DNA of 64,000 nucleotides, from contig NZ_JONK01000029.1 in assembly GCF_000711885.1 (NCBI RefSeq), positions 1 through 64,000 on the forward strand, given 5' to 3'. This DNA is from Chromobacterium haemolyticum DSM 19808. GTDB lineage: Bacteria > Pseudomonadota > Gammaproteobacteria > Burkholderiales > Chromobacteriaceae. The notes under the pieces were generated by a model. The model was not told the origin of the DNA. It was given only the letters and a program-made list of their open reading frames with translations, and did no database searches. Of the stretch, positions 2,618-59,790 are shown piece after piece. Both the position numbers and the translations under genes were made by a program. How positions within the stretch are numbered: the first letter of the stretch is position 1; each line of letters begins with the position of its first letter.

Positions 2618-2666
2618 TTGCAATGTCTTGTCCCGCGACGCGGGCCAGACTTTGAACAGGCTTTTA
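2618..2666 (-). repeat. end-fragment of stop-codon-linked repeat family (copy A)
   Basis: Read on the minus strand this begins with the TAA stop of lpxH and continues AAGCCTGTTCAAAGTCT, then GCGGGACAAGAC. It aligns with the left end of the full-length copy at 34786-34931, including the internal GACAAGAC block. Only one end is recognisable, so it is probably a decayed copy. Confidence 0.5.
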
Positions 2667-3380
2667 GGCGGCGCTCAGCGGCAGGCTGACGATGCCCTCA
2701 TCGTCCAGCCGCAGATAGCCGCCCTGACCGCCATGCCAATCCTGGATCACCCAGCGCTCGGACTCTCCATGCCGGTGGATTGCAGGGCGGTGGGTGTGGC
2801 CGTGGATCAGCGTTGGCCAGTCGTGCTCGGCCAGCAGCGCTTCGACGGCGTCGGCGGCGACGTCCGAAATCTCTGTCAGCCCGTTTTGCCGTTTGGCCAT
2901 TTCGCTTTGCTGGCGCGCTTGGCGTGCGATCGCGTGGCGCTCGGCCAGCGGCCGAGCCAGCATCGCCTGCTGCCACTGAGGGTTGCGGCTGACGGCCCGA
3001 AATTGCTGGTAGGCAGTGTCGCCGGTGCACAGCGCGTCGCCGTGGCTGAGCAGGCAGCGACGGCCATGGGCTTCAATCAAGGTGGGGTCGTTCAGCAGCC
3101 GCGCGCCGCTGCGTTGACAGAAGCCCTCGCCCAGCAGGAAGTCGCGGTTGCCATGCATCACATACAGCGGCGTGATGGCGGCGAAGGCGCGCATCGCGGC
3201 CAGCGGCGTTTCCAGAAACGGCGAATCGTCGTCGTCGCCCACCCAGTATTCGAACAGATCGCCCAGGATGTAGAGCGCGTCGATCCGGCCTTGCCAGGCT
3301 TGCAGCGTGTCCAAAAACAAGCGGTTCAGCGCCGGTGTGTCGTCCGCCAGGTGCAGGTCGGAAATGAAGTGAATGGCCAT
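2664..3380 (-). CDS. lpxH: UDP-2,3-diacylglucosamine diphosphatase
   Basis: Peripheral inner-membrane metallophosphoesterase of lipid A synthesis. It hydrolyses UDP-2,3-diacylglucosamine to lipid X and UMP. The Mn-binding motifs are present in order: ISDLHL near the N terminus, GDLFEYWVGDD, HGNRDFLLG, LSHGD and IHGHTHRP. Length is 238 residues from the ATG at 3378-3380, about the family size; a longer frame to 3458 would add an unrelated arginine/proline-rich leader and was not used. It follows ppiB on the same strand, separated by two GC hairpins, so the two may share a transcript. Confidence 0.95.
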   Translation of the reverse strand: MAIHFISDLHLADDTPALNRLFLDTLQAWQGRIDALYILGDLFEYWVGDDDDSPFLETPLAAMRAFAAITPLYVMHGNRDFLLGEGFCQRSGARLLNDPTLIEAHGRRCLLSHGDALCTGDTAYQQFRAVSRNPQWQQAMLARPLAERHAIARQARQQSEMAKRQNGLTEISDVAADAVEALLAEHDWPTLIHGHTHRPAIHRHGESERWVIQDWHGGQGGYLRLDDEGIVSLPLSAA

Positions 3381-6243: not shown

Positions 6244-8010
<1,767 letters not shown>

Positions 8011-8013
<3 letters not shown>

Positions 8014-8212
8014 GAATCTGTTTGATGCCTGCCGCGCTTGATGGAAGGCCGCACGGCGAGTACGGAGAACCTATTCAAAGCCTGCTGCGCTTCGTGGAGC
8101 GTTGCACGGTGAGTACAAGCTCACAATGCTCATTCACCCCTCGACCATTCCGCTTTCTCAACGGTTTTCGCCTTGTCTCGCTCTTGCTCTCTGGAGCGTA
8201 AACACGTTCTAA
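8011..8212 (+). repeat. stop-codon-linked repeat, enlarged copy (copy B)
   Basis: The repeat begins in the TGA of the ABC exporter (TGAGAATCTGTTTGA) and ends GGAGCGTAAACACGTTCTA. A second left end, GAGAACCTATTCAAAGCC, starts near 8066, so the first ~55 bases look like a duplicated left end. The core GTGGAGCGTTGCACGGTGAG matches 58720-58868 closely, as does CGGTTTTCGCCTTGTCTCGC. No coding capacity is evident. With 8213-8322 it fills the gap before the next gene. Confidence 0.75.
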
Positions 8213-8993: not shown

Positions 8994-9021
8994 TGGAGTG
9001 CAGATCGTGAACACGTTCTCA
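8994..9021 (-). repeat. terminal fragment of stop-codon-linked repeat (copy C)
   Basis: On the minus strand it reads TGA (the stop of the sigma54 activator) then GAACGTGTTCACGATCTGC, the complete left terminal repeat of the family. Nothing of the interior remains; the rest of the 33-base gap is unrelated. Confidence 0.65.
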
Positions 9022-10362
9022 GGCGCGGTAGCCATCCGGGTCTATGCCGTGCTTGGCGAACTTGTTGTACAGCGTCTTGCGCGGAATGCCCAGCAGTTCG
9101 GCCGCCTGCATCACTTGGCCCTGGGTGCGCAGCAGCGCCTGTTCGATCAATTGTTTCTCGTAGGCGTCCACCCTCGCGTCCAGCGCGCTGGGCGCGTAGG
9201 CCGCCGGTTCGCCGCCGTCCGGCGCCACGCCCAGCACATAGCGTTCCGCCGCGTTGCGCAGCTCGCGCACATTGCCCGGCCACGTCTGCGCCTGCAGGCG
9301 TCCCAATAAGGCTGGCGGCGTGTCCGGCGCCGGCCGGTTGAAGCGCGCCGCCGCTTGTTCCACAAACCACTGGAACAGGTCCGGAATGTCCTCGCGCCGC
9401 TCACGCAGCGGCGGCAGCCGCAGCGACACCACGTTGAGCCGGTAGTAAAGGTCTTCGCGGAAGCGCCGTTCCCGGCTGGCCAGGGCCAGATCGTCCTTGG
9501 TGGCGGCCACCACCCGGCAGTCCACCGGGATCAGGCTGTTGGAGCCCAGCCTTTCCACCACACGCTGTTGCAGCACCCGCAAGAGTTTCGCTTGCAGGGC
9601 CAGCGGCATGCCTTCGATTTCGTCGAGGAAGAGGGTGCCGCCGCTGGCGTACTCTATCTTGCCGATGCGGCGCTTGAGCGCGCCGGTGAAGGCCCCGGCC
9701 TCGTGGCCGAAAATCTCGCTCTCGAAAATGGATTCCGGCAGGCCGGCGCAGTTCAGCGGCACGAAATGACGCTCGCGGCGACGGCTCCAGGCGTGCAGCG
9801 CCTGCGCCACCATTTCTTTGCCGGTGCCGGTTTCGCCGTGAATCAGCACATCGGCGTCGGTGTCGGCGATATTGGCCAGCGTTTCGCGCAGCGCCTGCAT
9901 TGCCGGGCTGCGGCCTATCAACACCGGGCCGTTGCTGCGCGCCAGGCTGGCGCGCAGTTCTCGGTTTTCCAGCGTTAGCCGGCGTTTGTCCAGCGCGCGC
10001 TGCACTGTCTCGGTCAAGCGGCCCGGCGCATAGGGCTTCTCGATGAAGTCGTAGGCGCCGGCGCGGGTGGCCGACACCGCCATTGCGATGTCGCCGTGGC
10101 CGGTGACCAGGATGACCGGCAGTTCCCGGTCCAGGCTCAGCGCCTGCTCCATCAGTTCCAGGCCGCTGAGTCCCGGCAGGCGGACATCGCTGAGCAGCAC
10201 CGCGCGCTCGTCCCGCCTTAGCGCGGCCAGCGCGCTTTCGGCATCGGTGAAGGATTGCACCGGCAGGCCGGCCAGCTCCAGCGATTGCAGCGTGGCCATG
10301 CGCACGGCCGGGTCGTCTTCAACATAAATTACGCCCACGGGGGCGCTGAGGGTGGGCGTCAT
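9019..10362 (-). CDS. sigma54-dependent response regulator, DctD-like
   Basis: NtrC-class transcription activator. Residues 10-120 form a receiver domain with the phospho-acceptor in LLSDVRLPG (Asp59) and conserved Lys in FIEKPY. The AAA+ domain follows with Walker A GETGTGKE, the sigma54-contact loop GAFTGA and Walker B GGTLFLDEIEG. A Fis-type helix-turn-helix, AAELLGIPRKTLYNKF, ends the protein. Length of 447 residues and family style match DctD, the dicarboxylate-responsive activator of rhizobia. The ATG at 10360-10362 overlaps the kinase stop as ATGA, supporting this start and coupled translation. A near-consensus sigma54 promoter at 15109-15123 suggests it activates the linked ABC transporter operon. 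Confidence 0.9.
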   Translation of the reverse strand: MTPTLSAPVGVIYVEDDPAVRMATLQSLELAGLPVQSFTDAESALAALRRDERAVLLSDVRLPGLSGLELMEQALSLDRELPVILVTGHGDIAMAVSATRAGAYDFIEKPYAPGRLTETVQRALDKRRLTLENRELRASLARSNGPVLIGRSPAMQALRETLANIADTDADVLIHGETGTGKEMVAQALHAWSRRRERHFVPLNCAGLPESIFESEIFGHEAGAFTGALKRRIGKIEYASGGTLFLDEIEGMPLALQAKLLRVLQQRVVERLGSNSLIPVDCRVVAATKDDLALASRERRFREDLYYRLNVVSLRLPPLRERREDIPDLFQWFVEQAAARFNRPAPDTPPALLGRLQAQTWPGNVRELRNAAERYVLGVAPDGGEPAAYAPSALDARVDAYEKQLIEQALLRTQGQVMQAAELLGIPRKTLYNKFAKHGIDPDGYRA

Positions 10363-17885: not shown

Positions 17886-18092
17886 TTCATTGTTCTCTTA
17901 TTTTTTGCGGACGGGTGGCAGCCCGGCCCGCGCCTGATGTTTCCGCCCCTGCAACAGCGTGGCTCGGATACGCGACACGCGTATTTTCGATGCGGTTTTC
18001 ACGGCCGTATCGCCGAGGCGCGGCAGCGCGTAAACCGGCTCTGAAAGAACGACATGTATCCCTCCTGTTTCTAACCCTCATTGGAGTCCGTG

Positions 18093-22864: not shown

Positions 22865-22967
22865 GGCGTTGTTTCCCTTGTGTTATTGGTTTGGAGCCGC
22901 GAGCAAGCCTGTGATGCCGCGTCGCCTCGGCTCATCCGCCGATGCGCGGCGGATCGTAAGCGGCCTC

Positions 22968-23911
22968 TTAATCCAGGCTTTGCAGCCGGACTTGAGCCGC
23001 CAATGCGCGCACCTGTTCCGGTGGCGGCAGGTGGGGGCCGACGCGCGCCAGTTTGGCGGCGGCGAAGGCAACCGCCAGCCGGGCTTCCGCCTCAAGCTCC
23101 AGCCCATCCAGCCGCGCCGCGGCCAGGCCGGCCACCAAGGCGTCGCCGGCTCCCACGGTGCTCAGCGGCTGTTGCGCCGGCAAGGAGGCCAGCAGCGAGC
23201 GGTCGCGGCTGGCGAACAGCGCGCCGTCCGCGCCCAGCGATACCACCACTTGTTCCACGCCGCGTTGCAGTAGCCCGCGCGCGCAGGCCAGCACCGCGGC
23301 GGTGTCGGGCAGGGCGCGGCCGGCCCAGAGCTCCAGTTCGTGACGATTGGGTTTGACGCAGTGAGGCGGAGCGTCCCCATCCAGAGCCTGGCTCAGCGCT
23401 TCTCCGCTGCTGTCCAGCAGCAGCCGCGCGCCCAGAGGCCGCAGCAACCGGCACAGCCGCAGATAGCTGTTGGCGGGCAGGCCGGGCGGCAAGCTGCCGC
23501 ACAGCGCCACGATGTCGCCGGGGTTCAGCCGGGCGGCCAGCTCGGCGCCCACTTGCTCCAGCTGCGCTTCGCCGGCGGCGATGCCGGGCAGGTTGATGTC
23601 GGTGGTGTCGCCGCTGGAGAGGTCGGCCAGCTTGATGTTGACCCGGGTGTCGCCGGGCAGGCGCAGCATGTGGTCGGCGATGCGCTTGTCCAGGAACAAT
23701 TGTTCGAAGGCTTCGCTGTTGTTGCGGCCCAGCAGGCCGAAAACGCTAACCGGCGCTCCCCAGTCAGCCAGGCAACTGGCCACGTTGACGCCCTTGCCGC
23801 CGGCGTTGCCGCTGGCGCTTTGCGCCAGGTTGACCGCGCCGGGGGTCAGCCGGGCCAGGGCGATGGTTTGGTCCAGCGCCGGATTAAGGGTGACGGTGTG
23901 GACGCGGGCGC

Positions 23912-23915
<4 letters not shown>
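22968..23915 (-). CDS. fruK: 1-phosphofructokinase
   Basis: Phosphorylates fructose-1-phosphate from FruA to fructose-1,6-bisphosphate with ATP. PfkB-family signatures are present: TLNPALDQTI at the N terminus, NAGGKGVNVASCLADWG, and the C-terminal ATP/anion-hole motif STVGAGDALVAGL with the catalytic Asp. Length of 315 residues is normal. The ATG overlaps the fruB stop as ATGA, so translation is coupled. Confidence 0.95.
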
Positions 23916-31878: not shown

Positions 31879-31954
31879 AGAACCTGTTTACGCTCTCTCG
31901 AGCCAAGGCGAAAACAGGTTCTGAGAAATCAGAATAGATCATGAACAAGTTCTA
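31879..31954. repeat. miniature copy of stop-codon-linked repeat with both ends (copy D)
   Basis: AGAACCTGTTTACGCTCT at the left and AGATCATGAACAAGTTCT at the right are inverted repeats matching in about 14 of 18 positions. The interior is shortened to about 40 bases but retains AGCCAAGGCGAAAAC from the family core. It is the only copy not next to a stop codon. The remainder of 31955-32078 holds nothing I can identify. Confidence 0.65.
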
Positions 31955-34785: not shown

Positions 34786-34931
34786 TAGAACCTGTTCAAG
34801 GTCTTGCGAGCTAGAGCGAGACAAGACGAAAGCGGTTGAGAAAGCGGAATGCACAAGTGGTACATGAGCCTTTCGAAGCCGTTTTTAACGCCGTATCGCG
34901 CGAAGCGCAGCAGACTTTAAACAAGCTCTTA
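34786..34931 (-). repeat. full-length stop-codon-linked repeat (copy E)
   Basis: About 146 bp occupying nearly the whole gap between the C2 and C1 genes. Its right end contains the C2 gene stop (TTA at 34929-34931) and its left end reads AGAACCTGTTCAAGGTCT. The core GAGCGAGACAAGACGAAAGC and the A/G-rich centre align with copy F. Being between two subunits of one enzyme, it must be transcribed with them. Confidence 0.75.
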
Positions 34932-36098
34932 GACCATGGAGGGGTCCGGCTCCAGCCCCAGCAGCGAACGTCCCAGGATCTGGGCGCAGACGTCGTAGTC
35001 GGTATAGGCGTGGGCGCCAGTCATATGGGCGTCGCGGAACAGCCGCTGCGCTTCGTTTTCCAGCCGCCAACAGTTGCCGCCCATGGATTCGAACAAACGG
35101 TCCACCGCCTGGATGCACATCTTCACCGCATAGGCTTGGTTGGTGCGCCAGAAGGCCAGCGTTTCCGCCGTGGGGTAGCGCTGGGCCGCGCCGTGCTCGG
35201 CGTGATCGCGCCAGCTGGCTTCCAGCAAGGCGCGCGCGGCCAGCACTTGGTGAGTGGATTCGGCCAGCCTCATATAGGCTGGCAGCGCGGCGCCCACTTG
35301 GGCGCCGGTGTAGGCGCGGATGCGGTTGTGGCTGCGTTCCTTGAAGACTTGCAGCATGCGCTCGGCCACGCCCAGGCTGATGGCGGCGAAGCCGCTGGCG
35401 AAGTAGGGCCGGTAGGGCGCGTAGAAAATCTTGCTGTCCGGGTACAGGCCGAAGCCGGCGGAGCGGCCTTCCATCATGTCCTTGGCGGCTTCTATCCGGT
35501 GTTCCGGCACGAAGACCTTGTCCACCAGCAGCGTCTTGGTGCCGCTGCCTTGCATGCCGGCGGCGTGCCAGTCGTCGCGTATCTGGTAATCGGCGCGCGG
35601 CACCACGCCAAAGCAGTATTGCGGTTCGCCGTCCGGGCCGGGGCGGCGAAAGCCCAGTATCGCCCACTCAGCGTGGTCGCAGCCGCTGCTCCAGCCCATT
35701 TCACCGCTGAGCAGCACGCCGCCGTCCACGGCTTCGGCCCGGCCCAGCGGCGCGATGCTGCTACTGGCGGTGGCGTCGCGGTCCTTGCCCCAGACCTCCT
35801 CTTGCAGCCGGGCGGAGAACAGCGCGATCTGGTGACTGTGGGTGGCCAGCAGGCTGGCCGCCCAAGCGGTGCTGGCGCAGGCGCCGGCCAGCGCCGCCAC
35901 GCAGTCCGCGAATTCCGGCAGGCTGATTTCCTTGCCGCCGTAAGGCTTGGGCTGGAAGGCGCGGTGAAAGCCTATGCTTTTCAACAGCGCGATGTTTTCC
36001 GCCGGCACGGTGCGTTCGCGTTCCGCCTGCTCCGCATTGGCGGCGATGGCGGGCAGAATGGGGAGCAGGGTTTCCAGCAAGGGATTGGGGTGGCGCAT
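34929..36098 (-). CDS. 4-hydroxyphenylacetate 3-hydroxylase, oxygenase component (C2 type, acyl-CoA dehydrogenase fold)
   Basis: Uses reduced flavin from the C1-type partner and O2 to convert 4-hydroxyphenylacetate to 3,4-dihydroxyphenylacetate. The 389-residue protein closely follows the A. baumannii C2 oxygenase as I remember it: SIGFHRAFQPKPYGG, GACASTAWAASLLATHSHQ, ATASSSIAPLG, GWSSGCDHAEWAILGF, AKDMMEGRSAGFGLYPDSK and the C-terminal DAHMTGAHAYTDYDVCAQIL. Its N terminus is about 30 residues shorter. This is not homologous to the FAD-type HpaB of E. coli. It lies downstream of the MHS transporter gene and ahead of its reductase. Confidence 0.9.
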   Translation of the reverse strand: MRHPNPLLETLLPILPAIAANAEQAERERTVPAENIALLKSIGFHRAFQPKPYGGKEISLPEFADCVAALAGACASTAWAASLLATHSHQIALFSARLQEEVWGKDRDATASSSIAPLGRAEAVDGGVLLSGEMGWSSGCDHAEWAILGFRRPGPDGEPQYCFGVVPRADYQIRDDWHAAGMQGSGTKTLLVDKVFVPEHRIEAAKDMMEGRSAGFGLYPDSKIFYAPYRPYFASGFAAISLGVAERMLQVFKERSHNRIRAYTGAQVGAALPAYMRLAESTHQVLAARALLEASWRDHAEHGAAQRYPTAETLAFWRTNQAYAVKMCIQAVDRLFESMGGNCWRLENEAQRLFRDAHMTGAHAYTDYDVCAQILGRSLLGLEPDPSMV

Positions 36099-47598: not shown

Positions 47599-48930
47599 AT
47601 GTCTTACGACACTGCCCGTTTCTGGCACCCGATGCTGCATCCCAACGCAATGAAAGAGCGGACGCCCATCCGCATCGTGCGCGGCGACGGCTGCCACGTG
47701 TTCGACGACCAAGGCCGCAAGCTGGTGGACGGCGTAGCCGGCTTGTGGAACGTCAACGTCGGCCACAACCGCGCCGAGATCAAGCAGGCGATCGCCCGGC
47801 AATTGGACGAACTGGAGTATTTCCAACTGTTCGACGGCATCTCCCATCCGCGGGCGGAGGAACTGTCCGCGTTGCTGATCGACATGTTGCGGCAGGAGGA
47901 CATGGCGCGGGTGGTGTTCAGCTCCGGCGGTTCGGACGCGGTGGAAACCGCGCTCAAGCTGGCGCGCCAGTATTGGCGGCTCAAGGGCCAGCCGGACCGC
48001 GTCAAGTTCATTTCGTTGAAGCAGGGTTACCACGGTACTCACTTCGGCGGCGGTTCGGTCAACGGCAACACGGTGTTCCGCCGCAATTACGAGCCGCTGC
48101 TGCCCGGCTGCTTCCATGTGGAGACCCCGTGGCCTTACCGCAACCCGTTCACCGAGGACCCGGAGGAACTGGCCGAGATTTGCGCGCGGATGCTGGAGCG
48201 CGAAATCCTGTTCCAGAGCCCGGACACGGTGGCGGCCTTTATCGCCGAGCCCATCCAGGGCGCCGGCGGCGTCATCGTGCCGCCGGCCAGCTATTGGCCA
48301 AGGGTACGCGAGGTGTGCGACCGCCACGGCGTGTTGTTGATCGCCGACGAGGTGGTCACCGGCTTCGGCCGCTCCGGCTCCATGTTCGGCAGCCGGCTGT
48401 GGGGAGTGAAGCCGGACATGATGTGCCTGGCCAAGGGCATCTCCTCCGGTTATCTGCCGCTGGGGGCCACCGTGGTCAATCAGCGCGTGGCGGACGCCTT
48501 CGCCGCCAACGGCGATTTCGGCGGCGTCATCATGCACGGCTACACCTACGCCGGCCACCCGGTGGCCTGCGCCGCCGCTCTTGCCAATCTGCGCATCGTG
48601 CAAGAGGAAGACCTCCCGGCCAAGGCGGCGGAAACCGGCGCCTACCTGCTGGAGCGGCTGCGGCCGCTGGCCGAGCGTTATCCGGCGGTGGGCGAGGTGC
48701 GCGGCAAGGGACTGATGCTGGCTCTGGACCTGGTCAAGGACAAGTCCAGCCGGGAACCCATCGATCCGCAAAGCGGTTACGCCGACAAGGTGGCGGAAAT
48801 CGCCCGCCGGGCCGGCGCGCTGGTGCGGCCGGTGGGCAGCAAGATCATTCTGTCGCCGCCGCTGGTGTTGCAGCGCGAGCACGCAGACGTGATTGCGACG
48901 GCCTTGGAGGCCGGACTGGCCGAGGCCTGA
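47599..48930 (+). CDS. class III (omega) aminotransferase
   Basis: PLP enzyme predicted to move an amino group from an amine or omega-amino acid to pyruvate. Fold type I class III signatures: [51 protein letters not shown], and the PLP lysine Lys279 in [15 protein letters not shown]. Length is 443 residues. It resembles the amine:pyruvate transaminases for which Chromobacterium is known, but differs from the well-studied CV2025 enzyme as I recall it. The neighbouring aldehyde dehydrogenase suggests an arylethylamine as substrate. Its stop codon is part of a repeat copy. Confidence 0.88.
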
Positions 48931-49074
48931 GGAACGTGTTCATGATCTCGCGTGCAAGGGCGAGACAAGGCGAAAACGGCTGAAAAAGCGCAGTGAGCAC
49001 ATGATACAGGAGCGCTTTGAAGACGTTTGCAAGGCTGTATCGCAGCCGCATAGCAGATCGTGAACAGGTTCTGA
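48928..49074 (-). repeat. full-length stop-codon-linked repeat (copy F)
   Basis: Begins with the aminotransferase TGA followed by GGAACGTGTTCATGATCTCG and ends AGATCGTGAACAGGTTCT. The ends are inverted repeats matching over about 15 of 18 bases. The core GGCGAGACAAGGCGAAAAC then GGCTGAAAAAGCG is the best preserved in the window. Its reverse complement aligns end to end with 58720-58868. Confidence 0.78.
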
Positions 49075-52060: not shown

Positions 52061-52084
52061 AGGATCGTGAACAGCTTCTCATTA
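52061..52084 (-). repeat. terminal fragment of stop-codon-linked repeat (copy G)
   Basis: On the minus strand: TAA (stop of hpaR), TG, then AGAAGCTGTTCACGATCCT, which is the family terminal repeat. No interior remains. The gap 51980-52081 otherwise holds nothing identifiable. Confidence 0.55.
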
Positions 52085-52519
52085 CGGCGCGGGCAGGTTT
52101 TCCAACTCGTCCAGCAATACCAGCAAGGTCTGCAGCTTGGCAGGGGAGAAATGCGTCTCGATCCGTCGGTAGCAGTCATTGGAGAGTGGGATGACGCGTT
52201 GGGTCAGCGTCTTGGCGTGCGGTGTGGGCGTGACGATCAAGCGGCGGTTGTCGCTTCGGGCGCGGTGGCGGTACACCAGATCATCCCGTTCCATGCGCGT
52301 CAGGATGCCGCTGAGGCTGGGCGGGTGGATGCCGGCGCGCTGGGCGATCTCGCCGGCTTCCATTTCACCGCGCTCCGCCAGCAGGCGCAATACGCGCCAT
52401 TGTTGTTCTGACAGCCCGTGCCGGCTCAACACCGGTCGAAAGTAGGACATCACCGCTTCGCGGGCGCGCAGCAAGCGTTGCGGCAGTTGATATTGATAGG
52501 GGCGTTGCGTGGGATCCAT
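52082..52519 (-). CDS. hpaR: MarR-family repressor of homoprotocatechuate degradation
   Basis: Probable repressor of the hpa genes, released by HPA or homoprotocatechuate. The 145-residue protein follows HpaR closely: LLRAREAVMSYFRPVLSRHG, LSEQQWRVLRLLAERGEMEA, a winged helix AGIHPPSLSGILTRMERDDL and the wing RARSDNRRLIVTPTPHA. In E. coli hpaR adjoins the operon; here it lies 8.5 kb away, inside the amine gene group. Its own upstream region carries a candidate operator (52577-52594). Confidence 0.87.
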   Translation of the reverse strand: MDPTQRPYQYQLPQRLLRAREAVMSYFRPVLSRHGLSEQQWRVLRLLAERGEMEAGEIAQRAGIHPPSLSGILTRMERDDLVYRHRARSDNRRLIVTPTPHAKTLTQRVIPLSNDCYRRIETHFSPAKLQTLLVLLDELENLPAP

Positions 52520-57909: not shown

Positions 57910-58722
57910 ATGTCGGTGGGGCATTACGAGAATTTCCCGGTGGGCTCCATTCTGCTGCCGCGCAGGATGCGCCGCGCCGTGCATGCGATCTACCATTTCG
58001 CGCGCTACGCCGACGATGTGGCGGACGAGGGCGACGACGCACCCGAACTGAGGCTGGCCGAACTGGACCGCCTGGGCGCGGAGCTGGAGCGCATCGGCGC
58101 CGGGCACACGCCGGCCACCGCCATGATGCGCAATCTGGCGGTGGCCATCGCCGAGCACGGCCTGGACTTGCAGCCGTTTCACGACCTGTTGGCGGCTTTC
58201 CGTCAGGATGTGGAAAAAACCCGCTACCGCGATTACGCGGAACTGGCGGATTACTGCCGCCGTTCCGCCAATCCGGTGGGGAGGCTGATGCTGGCCCTCT
58301 ACGGCGAGAACGACAGGCGCTCGCTGGCGATGTCGGACGGCATCTGCACCGCGCTGCAACTGATCAATTTTCTACAGGATGTGGAGCTGGACTGGCGCAA
58401 GGGCCGGGTTTATCTGCCGCAGGAGGATTTGCAGCGCTTCCGGGTGACCGAGGAGCAGATCGCCGCGCGCGACGCCGGCGGCCTGTGGCAGCCGATGATG
58501 CGCGCCCAGATCGAACGCGCGCGCAAGATGTTGCAGGCCGGCGCGCCGCTGGGCAAAGTGCTGAAGGGCAGGATGGGGCTGGAACTGAGGCTGATCATTC
58601 TGGGCGGCGAGCGCATCCTGAAAAAACTGCACGACTCCGGCGGCGACGTATTCCGCAGCCGCCCGGTGCTGAACTGGCGCGACTGGCTCTATATGTTGTG
58701 GCGCGCGGCGCGCGCCAAATAA
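57910..58722 (+). CDS. hpnC: squalene synthase-like protein HpnC
   Basis: In hopanoid-making bacteria HpnC, HpnD and HpnE together make squalene from farnesyl diphosphate; HpnC acts on the presqualene/hydroxysqualene intermediates. The 270-residue protein begins VGHYENFPVGSILLP, characteristic of HpnC. First aspartate-rich motif is FARYADDVADEGDD; the second region is LINFLQDVELDWRKGRVYLP. No squalene-hopene cyclase gene is in the window. The stop codon is the first base-triplet of a repeat copy that separates it from hpnD. Confidence 0.92.
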   Translation: MSVGHYENFPVGSILLPRRMRRAVHAIYHFARYADDVADEGDDAPELRLAELDRLGAELERIGAGHTPATAMMRNLAVAIAEHGLDLQPFHDLLAAFRQDVEKTRYRDYAELADYCRRSANPVGRLMLALYGENDRRSLAMSDGICTALQLINFLQDVELDWRKGRVYLPQEDLQRFRVTEEQIAARDAGGLWQPMMRAQIERARKMLQAGAPLGKVLKGRMGLELRLIILGGERILKKLHDSGGDVFRSRPVLNWRDWLYMLWRAARAK

Positions 58723-58868
58723 GAACCTGTTTACGATCTACTACGCATCGTGGAGCGTTACACGGTGAGTACGGCTTCAAAATGCTCATGTACCGTGTGT
58801 ACACTCGGCTTTTTCAGCCGTTTTCGCCTTGTCTCGCCCTAGCTCGCGAGATCGTAAACACATTCGTA
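58720..58868 (+). repeat. full-length stop-codon-linked repeat (copy H)
   Basis: Begins with the hpnC TAA: TAAGAACCTGTTTACGATCT, and ends AGATCGTAAACACATTCGTA, an inverted repeat of the start over about 16 of 18 bases. The core CCGTTTTCGCCTTGTCTCGCCC is shared with all long copies. It lies inside the hpnC-D-E run, so is probably transcribed. The remaining bases to 58944 include the hpnD ribosome site and nothing else identifiable. Confidence 0.78.
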
Positions 58869-58944
58869 AGAACCGCGGCGCGATGACGATGAATATTATG
58901 AGAACGGCGGCCCTCCGCGGCCGCCGCTTGAACAGGAGTGGCGC

Positions 58945-59790
58945 GTGACGCCTGATCAGTATTGCGAAGACAAGGCTGCCGCCAGCGGCTCCAGCTTCTA
59001 TTACAGCTTCCGTTTCTTGCCGGAGCCGCGCCGCCGCGCGATTACCGCGCTGTACGCTTTCTGCCGAGAGGTGGACGACGTGGTGGACGAATGCCACGAC
59101 CCCAACGTGGCCAGCGCCAAGCTGGCCTGGTGGCGCGGCGAGGTCGCCAAGCTCTATCAGGGCACGCCGGAACATCCTGTGATGCAGGCGCTGCAGCCGC
59201 ACGCTCGGGCCTTCGGCCTGCCGCAGAGCGAGCTGGAGGAAATCATAGACGGCATGGCGATGGACCTGAGCATGGTGCGCTATCAACGCTTCCAGGACCT
59301 GTTGCTGTACTGCCATCGCGTGGCCGGCGTGGTGGGGCAACTGGCGGCGCGCATCTTCGGCTACAGCGACGAGAAGACGCTGGAGTACGCGCACGAGCTG
59401 GGCATCGCTTTCCAACTGACCAACATCATCCGCGACGTGGGCGAGGATGCGCGCCGAGACCGCATCTATCTGCCGATGGAGGAGCTGCAGCGCTTCAACT
59501 GCCCGGCGATGGACATCCTGCACTATGAGGAAAGCGCGGCTTTCAAGGCCTTGATGGAATTCCAGATAGAGCGCGCGCAGCAGTACTACCGGCAGGCCTG
59601 GGACATGCTGCCCGCCGCGGACCGCAAGGCGCAGCGCCCCGGCTTGCTGATGGCGGCGATTTATCGCGCCACATTGGAGGAAATCAAGCTGGACGGTCCG
59701 GCCAAGGTGCTCAATCAGCGGCTGTCGCTGACGCCCATCCGCAAACTGTGGCTGGCATGGAAAACCTGGACCTTCGGCTACCGGGCGTGA
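58945..59790 (+). CDS. hpnD: presqualene diphosphate synthase HpnD
   Basis: Condenses two farnesyl diphosphates to presqualene diphosphate. The 281-residue protein shows both aspartate-rich motifs of the squalene/phytoene synthase family: AFCREVDDVVDECHD near residue 45 and QLTNIIRDVGEDARRDRIYLP near 165, with GMAMDLSMVRYQ between. Translation starts at GTG 58945, with AACAGGAG 8 bases upstream. It ends 7 bases before hpnE. Confidence 0.93.
   Translation: MTPDQYCEDKAAASGSSFYYSFRFLPEPRRRAITALYAFCREVDDVVDECHDPNVASAKLAWWRGEVAKLYQGTPEHPVMQALQPHARAFGLPQSELEEIIDGMAMDLSMVRYQRFQDLLLYCHRVAGVVGQLAARIFGYSDEKTLEYAHELGIAFQLTNIIRDVGEDARRDRIYLPMEELQRFNCPAMDILHYEESAAFKALMEFQIERAQQYYRQAWDMLPAADRKAQRPGLLMAAIYRATLEEIKLDGPAKVLNQRLSLTPIRKLWLAWKTWTFGYRA

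Follow-up and report, generated by a model that had tools for sequence, protein, structure and literature searches.

The window, a 64,000-nucleotide stretch of Chromobacterium haemolyticum DSM 19808, carries hpnC, identified by its match to TIGR03464. This gene closes with the stop codon TAA, directly followed at distance 0 by GAACCTGTTTACGATCT; positions 58717-58742 read ...GCCAAATAAGAACCTGTTTACGATCT, in which the final hpnC codons lead through the stop TAA into a repeat. This repeat is near-palindromic, a miniature inverted-repeat element (MITE), and the window contains the following copies, remnants and associated features, listed by position:

2647-2663, minus strand: degenerate element end adjoining the lpxH stop (gene 2664-3380, minus strand), distance 0; recognised by eye
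8014-8064, plus strand: weak fragment starting from the ABC exporter stop (gene 6244-8013), distance 0; E 0.34
8067-8209, plus strand: full-length MITE with no stop codon adjoining; profile hit
9000-9018, minus strand: fragment of an element end next to the sigma-54 activator stop (gene 9019-10362, minus strand), distance 0; E 5.8
17975-18041, minus strand: partial MITE copy away from called stops; profile hit
22936-22967, minus strand: degenerate element end directly beside a pfkB-type stop (gene 22968-23915, minus strand); E 0.79, 5 of 17 bases changed
31880-31952, no strand assigned: composite of element ends away from called stops; profile hit
34788-34928, minus strand: full-length MITE whose outer end abuts the oxygenase stop (gene 34929-36098, minus strand), distance 0; profile hit, site empty in G013 and filled in G018, G004 and G001
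48932-49071, minus strand: full-length MITE 1 bp past the aminotransferase stop (gene 47599-48930); profile hit, four relatives without the element here
52062-52078, minus strand: element end alone, 3 bp from the hpaR stop (gene 52082-52519, minus strand); TAA, then TGA, then GAAG
58720-58722, plus strand: hpnC stop TAA, which also forms the left of the two target duplicates; read from the sequence, relatives with an empty site having TGA at the same codon
58723-58865, plus strand: full-length MITE, the hpnC copy; profile hit of 159 bits
58867-58869, plus strand: TAA to the right of the hpnC MITE, probably the duplication's right copy, separated from the element by one base (G); read from the sequence

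The other six genes named in the first-pass annotation could be verified too: lpxH, an MsbA-like ABC exporter, a sigma-54 response regulator, the oxygenase component of p-hydroxyphenylacetate hydroxylase, a class-III aminotransferase and HpaR. The repeat ends at lpxH and at the ABC exporter are degenerate: AGACTTTGAACAGGCTT adjoins the lpxH stop, while the exporter stop TGA is followed by GAATCTGTTTG, part of the weakly scoring fragment. The first-pass annotation had placed the repeat 0-2 bases from the stop in seven genes; this holds for six of them (distances 0, 0, 0, 0 and 1, and 0 at hpnC), and hpaR, at 3 bp, falls outside the range.

The element was followed through 1.664 Mb of sampled DNA, 1.264 Mb from the window's genome and 0.4 Mb from the relative G004. 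A profile built from 21 copies and rebuilt from 107 clean-ended ones gave 203 hits; excluding those that stop more than 4 positions before a model end leaves 139 full-length copies, 109 in the window's genome and 30 in G004. The element is thus short, multicopy and bounded by terminal inverted repeats, with a core running from GAACCTGTTTACGATCT to AGATCGTAAACASGYTC that mostly measures 140 bp (47 copies) or 143 bp (44 copies) and a 17-bp terminal inverted repeat that is common to the MITE and a co-resident insertion sequence (IS). Genome-wide, the end pattern with at most three mismatches was matched 504 times, against 2 matches for the reversed control. Folding of the consensus RNA predicts a single long hairpin (-65.8 kcal/mol, z -8.4), and the hpnC copy is predicted to form a hairpin in both directions. 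An Rfam 15 scan of the whole window at the gathering score returned two tRNAs only, the MITE matching no RNA family, and positions 58500-59100, around the sole copy scanned for this purpose, contain neither an intrinsic terminator (a G+C-rich hairpin with a T run) nor a promoter-like site. The repeat that hugs the stop codons is a hairpin-shaped mobile element present in hundreds of copies.

In this sample from the two related genomes, 69 of the 139 full copies exactly abut a called stop codon and 70 lie away from stops. Measured to the nearest facing called stop, 59 copies are found at distance 0, 10 at -1 and 2 at +1, and no other offset between -30 and +60 holds more than three. The -1 class mostly involves TAG (8 of 10); at C4:317952, for instance, the duplicated triplet is TTA and the first G of the element remakes TAG. 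The first-pass annotation had argued that random intergenic insertion would not give such a pattern, and the comparison with shuffled positions bears this out: 2,000 rounds of random noncoding placement put a mean of 0.60 and a maximum of 5 of the 139 copies at stops. Stops make up 7.1% of noncoding TNA sites and 22.6% of CTNAG sites. Chance placement was discarded under the uniform noncoding shuffle as well as under the TNA, YTNAR and CTNAG nulls, all of which the observed 69/139 exceeds. Gene ends came from a home-made, hexamer-based caller and not from an annotation; genes that it overlooked would enlarge the noncoding space and overstate how far the nulls are exceeded, but would not produce so narrow a peak at 0 and -1. 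None of the 139 copies has an end 3 bp or less from a called gene start. Called genes hold 38,571 of the 53,251 free TNA sites, and none of the 139 full copies lies inside a called gene, a weak figure because an insertion that splits a gene would leave two separately called parts and could escape the count.

The target of the element is equally well defined. TNA stands directly outside at least one end in 137 of the 139 copies and outside both ends in 91, the triplet being identical on the two sides in 73. Relatives carry some of the corresponding sites empty, and comparison with G004 leaves exactly 3 bp common to both flanks (as at C4:71436 and G4:182987). The wider surroundings of the target follow a CTNAG consensus in 42 copies, a consensus seen again in the 69 copies examined that are not at stops. 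The suggestion in the first-pass annotation that insertion targets TRA sites was therefore essentially right, the target being TNA, best within CTNAG, with 3 bp duplicated. Scored for these preferences, sites at stops reach mean odds of 3.63, those just downstream 1.47 and other noncoding sites 0.96. Head-to-tail elements with one common TNA occur at G000 C17:321-534, C4:280861-281145 and C4:176279-176636, and the parent IS, described below, also adjoins other element copies; existing elements therefore seem to act as targets themselves.

The likely source of the MITE is a co-resident IS of the IS5 family, IS1031 type, with the same terminal repeat. Nine contig ends break within an IS whose transposase C terminus enters this repeat, and four other contig ends carry its left end, identical to the MITE in 17 of 17 bases; the right ends are likewise common to the MITE and this autonomous IS. 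All 13 single IS ends (9 right, 4 left) abut TAA or TTA, and 3 of the 13 lie at a called stop (2/4 left, 1/9 right); these ends were read singly, unpaired and from copies never read whole, and the right ends in L151-L153 share a near-identical flank and are non-independent. The 3-bp TNA duplication is thus seen as such for the MITE, and for the IS as a TNA beside each single end. The parent transposase is of the IS5-type DDE class (PF01609, above cut-off). With NF033580, a related IS in L021 scores 150.9 bits (cut-off 110) and the 108-aa parent fragment 91.2 bits, below the cut-off. This second IS lies at L021:1477-2328, measures 850-852 bp with two overlapping ORFs, a pair that some members of the IS1031 group join by frameshift, has the ends AGARCCTGTTCAAAGTCT and adjoins a MITE copy; the CAAAGTCT type of end is present on many old element ends. 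G004 gave no match to the parent transposase at E 1e-10 despite its many MITE copies (305 first-look candidates, of which 20 were scored). We infer that the parent transposase probably moves the MITE; the missing match in G004 counts against this.

The same habit is found in other genomes. Among the loci listed, stop-located copies number 42 of 76 in three named Chromobacterium species, 1 of 1 in Pseudogulbenkiania (43/77 with Chromobacterium) and 11 of 18 in Pseudomonas, counts that draw on the 80 loci listed from a scan of 112 stretches and on the 95 full copies in them. Three further genomes add 11 of 19, from 20 loci in the best rows of the relatives' scan, 19 of them with a full copy. All sets pooled, 134 of 253 copies lie at stops, not all of them independent events because the sets overlap in part and the named Chromobacterium species may share insertions with the other genomes. 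Of 18 relatives within the genus, seven lack any match at E 0.001. Five genomes, the window's included, have 299 to 446 first-look candidates; the family has therefore probably expanded in one branch of the genus. Used as synteny outgroups for a 20-kb query, G015, G008 and G014 all gave partial alignments, and in G015 and G014 the query splits onto two distant places. Hosts among the matches listed are C. haemolyticum, C. aquaticum, C. alkanivorans, Pseudogulbenkiania ferrooxidans and several Pseudomonas, a range that suggests transfer of the MITE between beta- and gammaproteobacteria. Within Pseudomonas, the same MITE was seen in several species among the matches listed (L159, L161, L176, L183 and other loci).

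We consider it the best explanation, with a probability of roughly three in four, that the stop-codon habit results from TNA/CTNAG targeting with a 3-bp duplication, together with the loss of insertions that break genes. The transposase of the IS1031-type IS would insert the MITE at TNA, with a preference for the palindromic CTNAG, duplicating 3 bp in the process. Insertions within genes would mostly be lost, presumably by purifying selection. Stop codons would be ideal sites because TAA and TGA are themselves TNA and the duplicate restores the stop: the copy beside the gene would simply be the unchanged old stop codon, and at a TTAG site the leading G of the element would remake TAG, such that the gene would keep its exact full-length protein. 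The element and its ends, the TNA duplications, the empty sites, the stop-codon peak and the preserved C termini are direct observations.

The C termini bear on a different reading, also raised in the first-pass annotation, in which the element truncates genes and supplies them with a new stop codon. Of the 69 stop-located copies, 20 have an element-free orthologue of at least 70% identity, and in 18 of these 20 tested cases the protein ends at the same C-terminal residue in the orthologue; one of the tested genes, ending TPYMRVTP, was counted twice, from two genomes. The two remaining C termini differ by 2 and 4 residues, which could be taken for truncation, as could the bases that stop and element end share in the TAG cases (8 of the 139 copies). 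One of these two exceptions, G4:182987, is an empty site in the window's genome and has its stop in the same place. Within the window, the hpnC site is empty in G018, G013, G004 and G001, all with the same C terminus and TGA at the same codon; the four relatives that lack the element at the aminotransferase stop have the same TGA; and G013, empty at the oxygenase site, has its stop at the same codon. On these comparisons truncation is rejected and retains next to no probability, though exceptions could be among the other 49 stop-located genes.

Targeting and loss leave some features of the stop-located copies over. Compared with equally scored downstream sites, stops are used at 1.77 times the rate (68 copies where 38 are expected, p 0.0046), a residue that may be modelling error since the site score assumes independent positions; restricted to CTNAG sites, stops against downstream sites give an odds ratio of 1.9 (p 0.09). 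The left element end faces the gene in 98 of the 134 stop-located copies (98:36; by set 40:14, 10:5, 32:11, 9:2 and 7:4), again not all independent events, and this orientation bias counts against our preferred explanation because a symmetric target gives none. In convergent pairs of G000 and G004, the left end faces the gene in 19 of 24 cases. TAA is over-used at distance 0, with 42 TAA to 17 TGA against 224 TGA, 104 TAA and 41 TAG among called stops overall in 464 kb, and the A/T preference of the middle base does not account for the whole surplus (p 0.004). Four of the 20 tested pairs combine TAA at the filled site with TGA in the empty relative, and the reverse was seen in 0 of 20; the four sites are 34928 and 58722 in the window and C4:126548 and C1:396672 in G000. 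The Pseudomonas stops that were hit, among the loci listed, are mostly TGA (9 of 11).

The residual excess and the orientation bias could be accommodated if the transposase were steered to gene 3' ends by something beyond TNA, for example DNA structure or the termination of transcription or translation, and inserted in a preferred orientation. In favour stands the orientation bias: it is stronger in high-scoring and probably younger copies (32/38 vs 18/31, p 0.03), and copies 1-60 bp beyond a stop lack it (10:18). The 50 sense copies, furthermore, have a downstream 20 bp richer in A+T than the coding side (GC 0.567 vs 0.677), which the 19 anti copies do not, and the residual excess at stops would find its place as well. 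Against steering stand the parent IS ends, most of which are not at called stops and often lie beside other elements, the independent-position score from which the residue derives, and the GC asymmetry of non-stop copies, which is only weak (p 0.07 at 20 bp). Asymmetry of target GC was tried as a cause of the orientation and set aside on account of this weak trend. We therefore regard such steering as rather improbable; the wider proposition that the stop codon itself is the normal landing place of the element, reached in a preferred orientation through steering by transposase or host beyond TNA, is unlikely too, if a little less so. Were steering real, it would give the element a harmless niche tolerated by all three stop codons, with its first G completing TAG. 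The residual excess and the orientation bias would also fit a third reading, in which selection retains the copies at stops for the sake of their hairpin, which would serve the mRNA 3' end in termination, stability or the insulation of convergent genes. The strong predicted hairpin, formed by the hpnC copy in both directions, is in keeping with this, as is the share of convergent pairs, which hold 24 of the 69 stop-located copies and are 189 of 1,387 gene pairs. If copies were retained for such a function, those that are older or shared should more often be at stops; the stop fraction is no higher in them, being 11/21 in copies absent from the relative and 8/13 in shared ones (p 0.73), and 38/70 in high-scoring and 31/69 in low-scoring copies, similarities that argue against retention within the limits of small numbers. 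The same holds for the lack of a terminator-like site around the one copy scanned, for the copies just past stops, which have no preferred orientation, and for the half of all copies found elsewhere. Most of the peak can thus be explained without selection as a 3'-end element, as put forward in the first-pass annotation, for which the residue and the orientation bias still speak; we think such selection improbable, somewhat more so than steering.

Altogether, targeting of TNA with loss of gene-breaking insertions would illustrate how a mobile element can multiply into the hundreds while doing genes little harm, as its target triplet doubles as a stop codon that the duplication restores. In many genes of Chromobacteriaceae and Pseudomonas, insertion also sets a strong hairpin precisely at the 3' end, and the filled and empty sites form a natural series on which the effect of a hairpin at the stop upon mRNA can be followed. 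For annotation, these copies are a warning that a repeat at a stop codon need not be a regulatory element.

The target rule itself is already known from the IS1031 group; for the stop-codon habit of a MITE we found no report in open papers. Our search of the open literature returned no account of the present MITE or its placement at stop codons, and no open paper naming both 'Chromobacterium' and 'miniature inverted-repeat'. Elements of the IS1031 group prefer TNA and generate a 3-bp repeat, and one of them, ISLrh, is 857 bp long with a 17-bp repeat, GAACCTGTCTAGTATCT, and two overlapping ORFs, according to the part of the source available to us (PMC12016507). The MITE shares the 3-bp TNA duplication, the ISLrh end, compared by eye, agrees with its own at 14 of 17 positions, and the related IS of L021 likewise has two overlapping ORFs; unlike here, the available part of that account mentions neither a stop-codon habit nor a MITE (PMC12016507). 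The nemis/Correia, RUP and MITEAba12 elements resemble the present one in that they are short and non-coding, with inverted ends, a target duplication and a co-resident IS with the same ends, and differ by duplicating TA or 9 bp instead of 3 bp, as far as the sections available describe them (PMC2229807, PMC6382973); for MITEAba12 one gene truncated by the element is described there, in contrast to most of the genes tested here. The YPAL or RU-2 repeat of Yersinia is likewise palindromic and mobile, and is described, in the portion of the source at hand, as co-expressed with upstream genes, whose RNA stability it may influence (PMC2229807). By the same partial account, it departs from the Chromobacterium element in its duplications of 3 to 26 bp, its internal inverted repeats and its targets at or beside dyads (PMC2229807).
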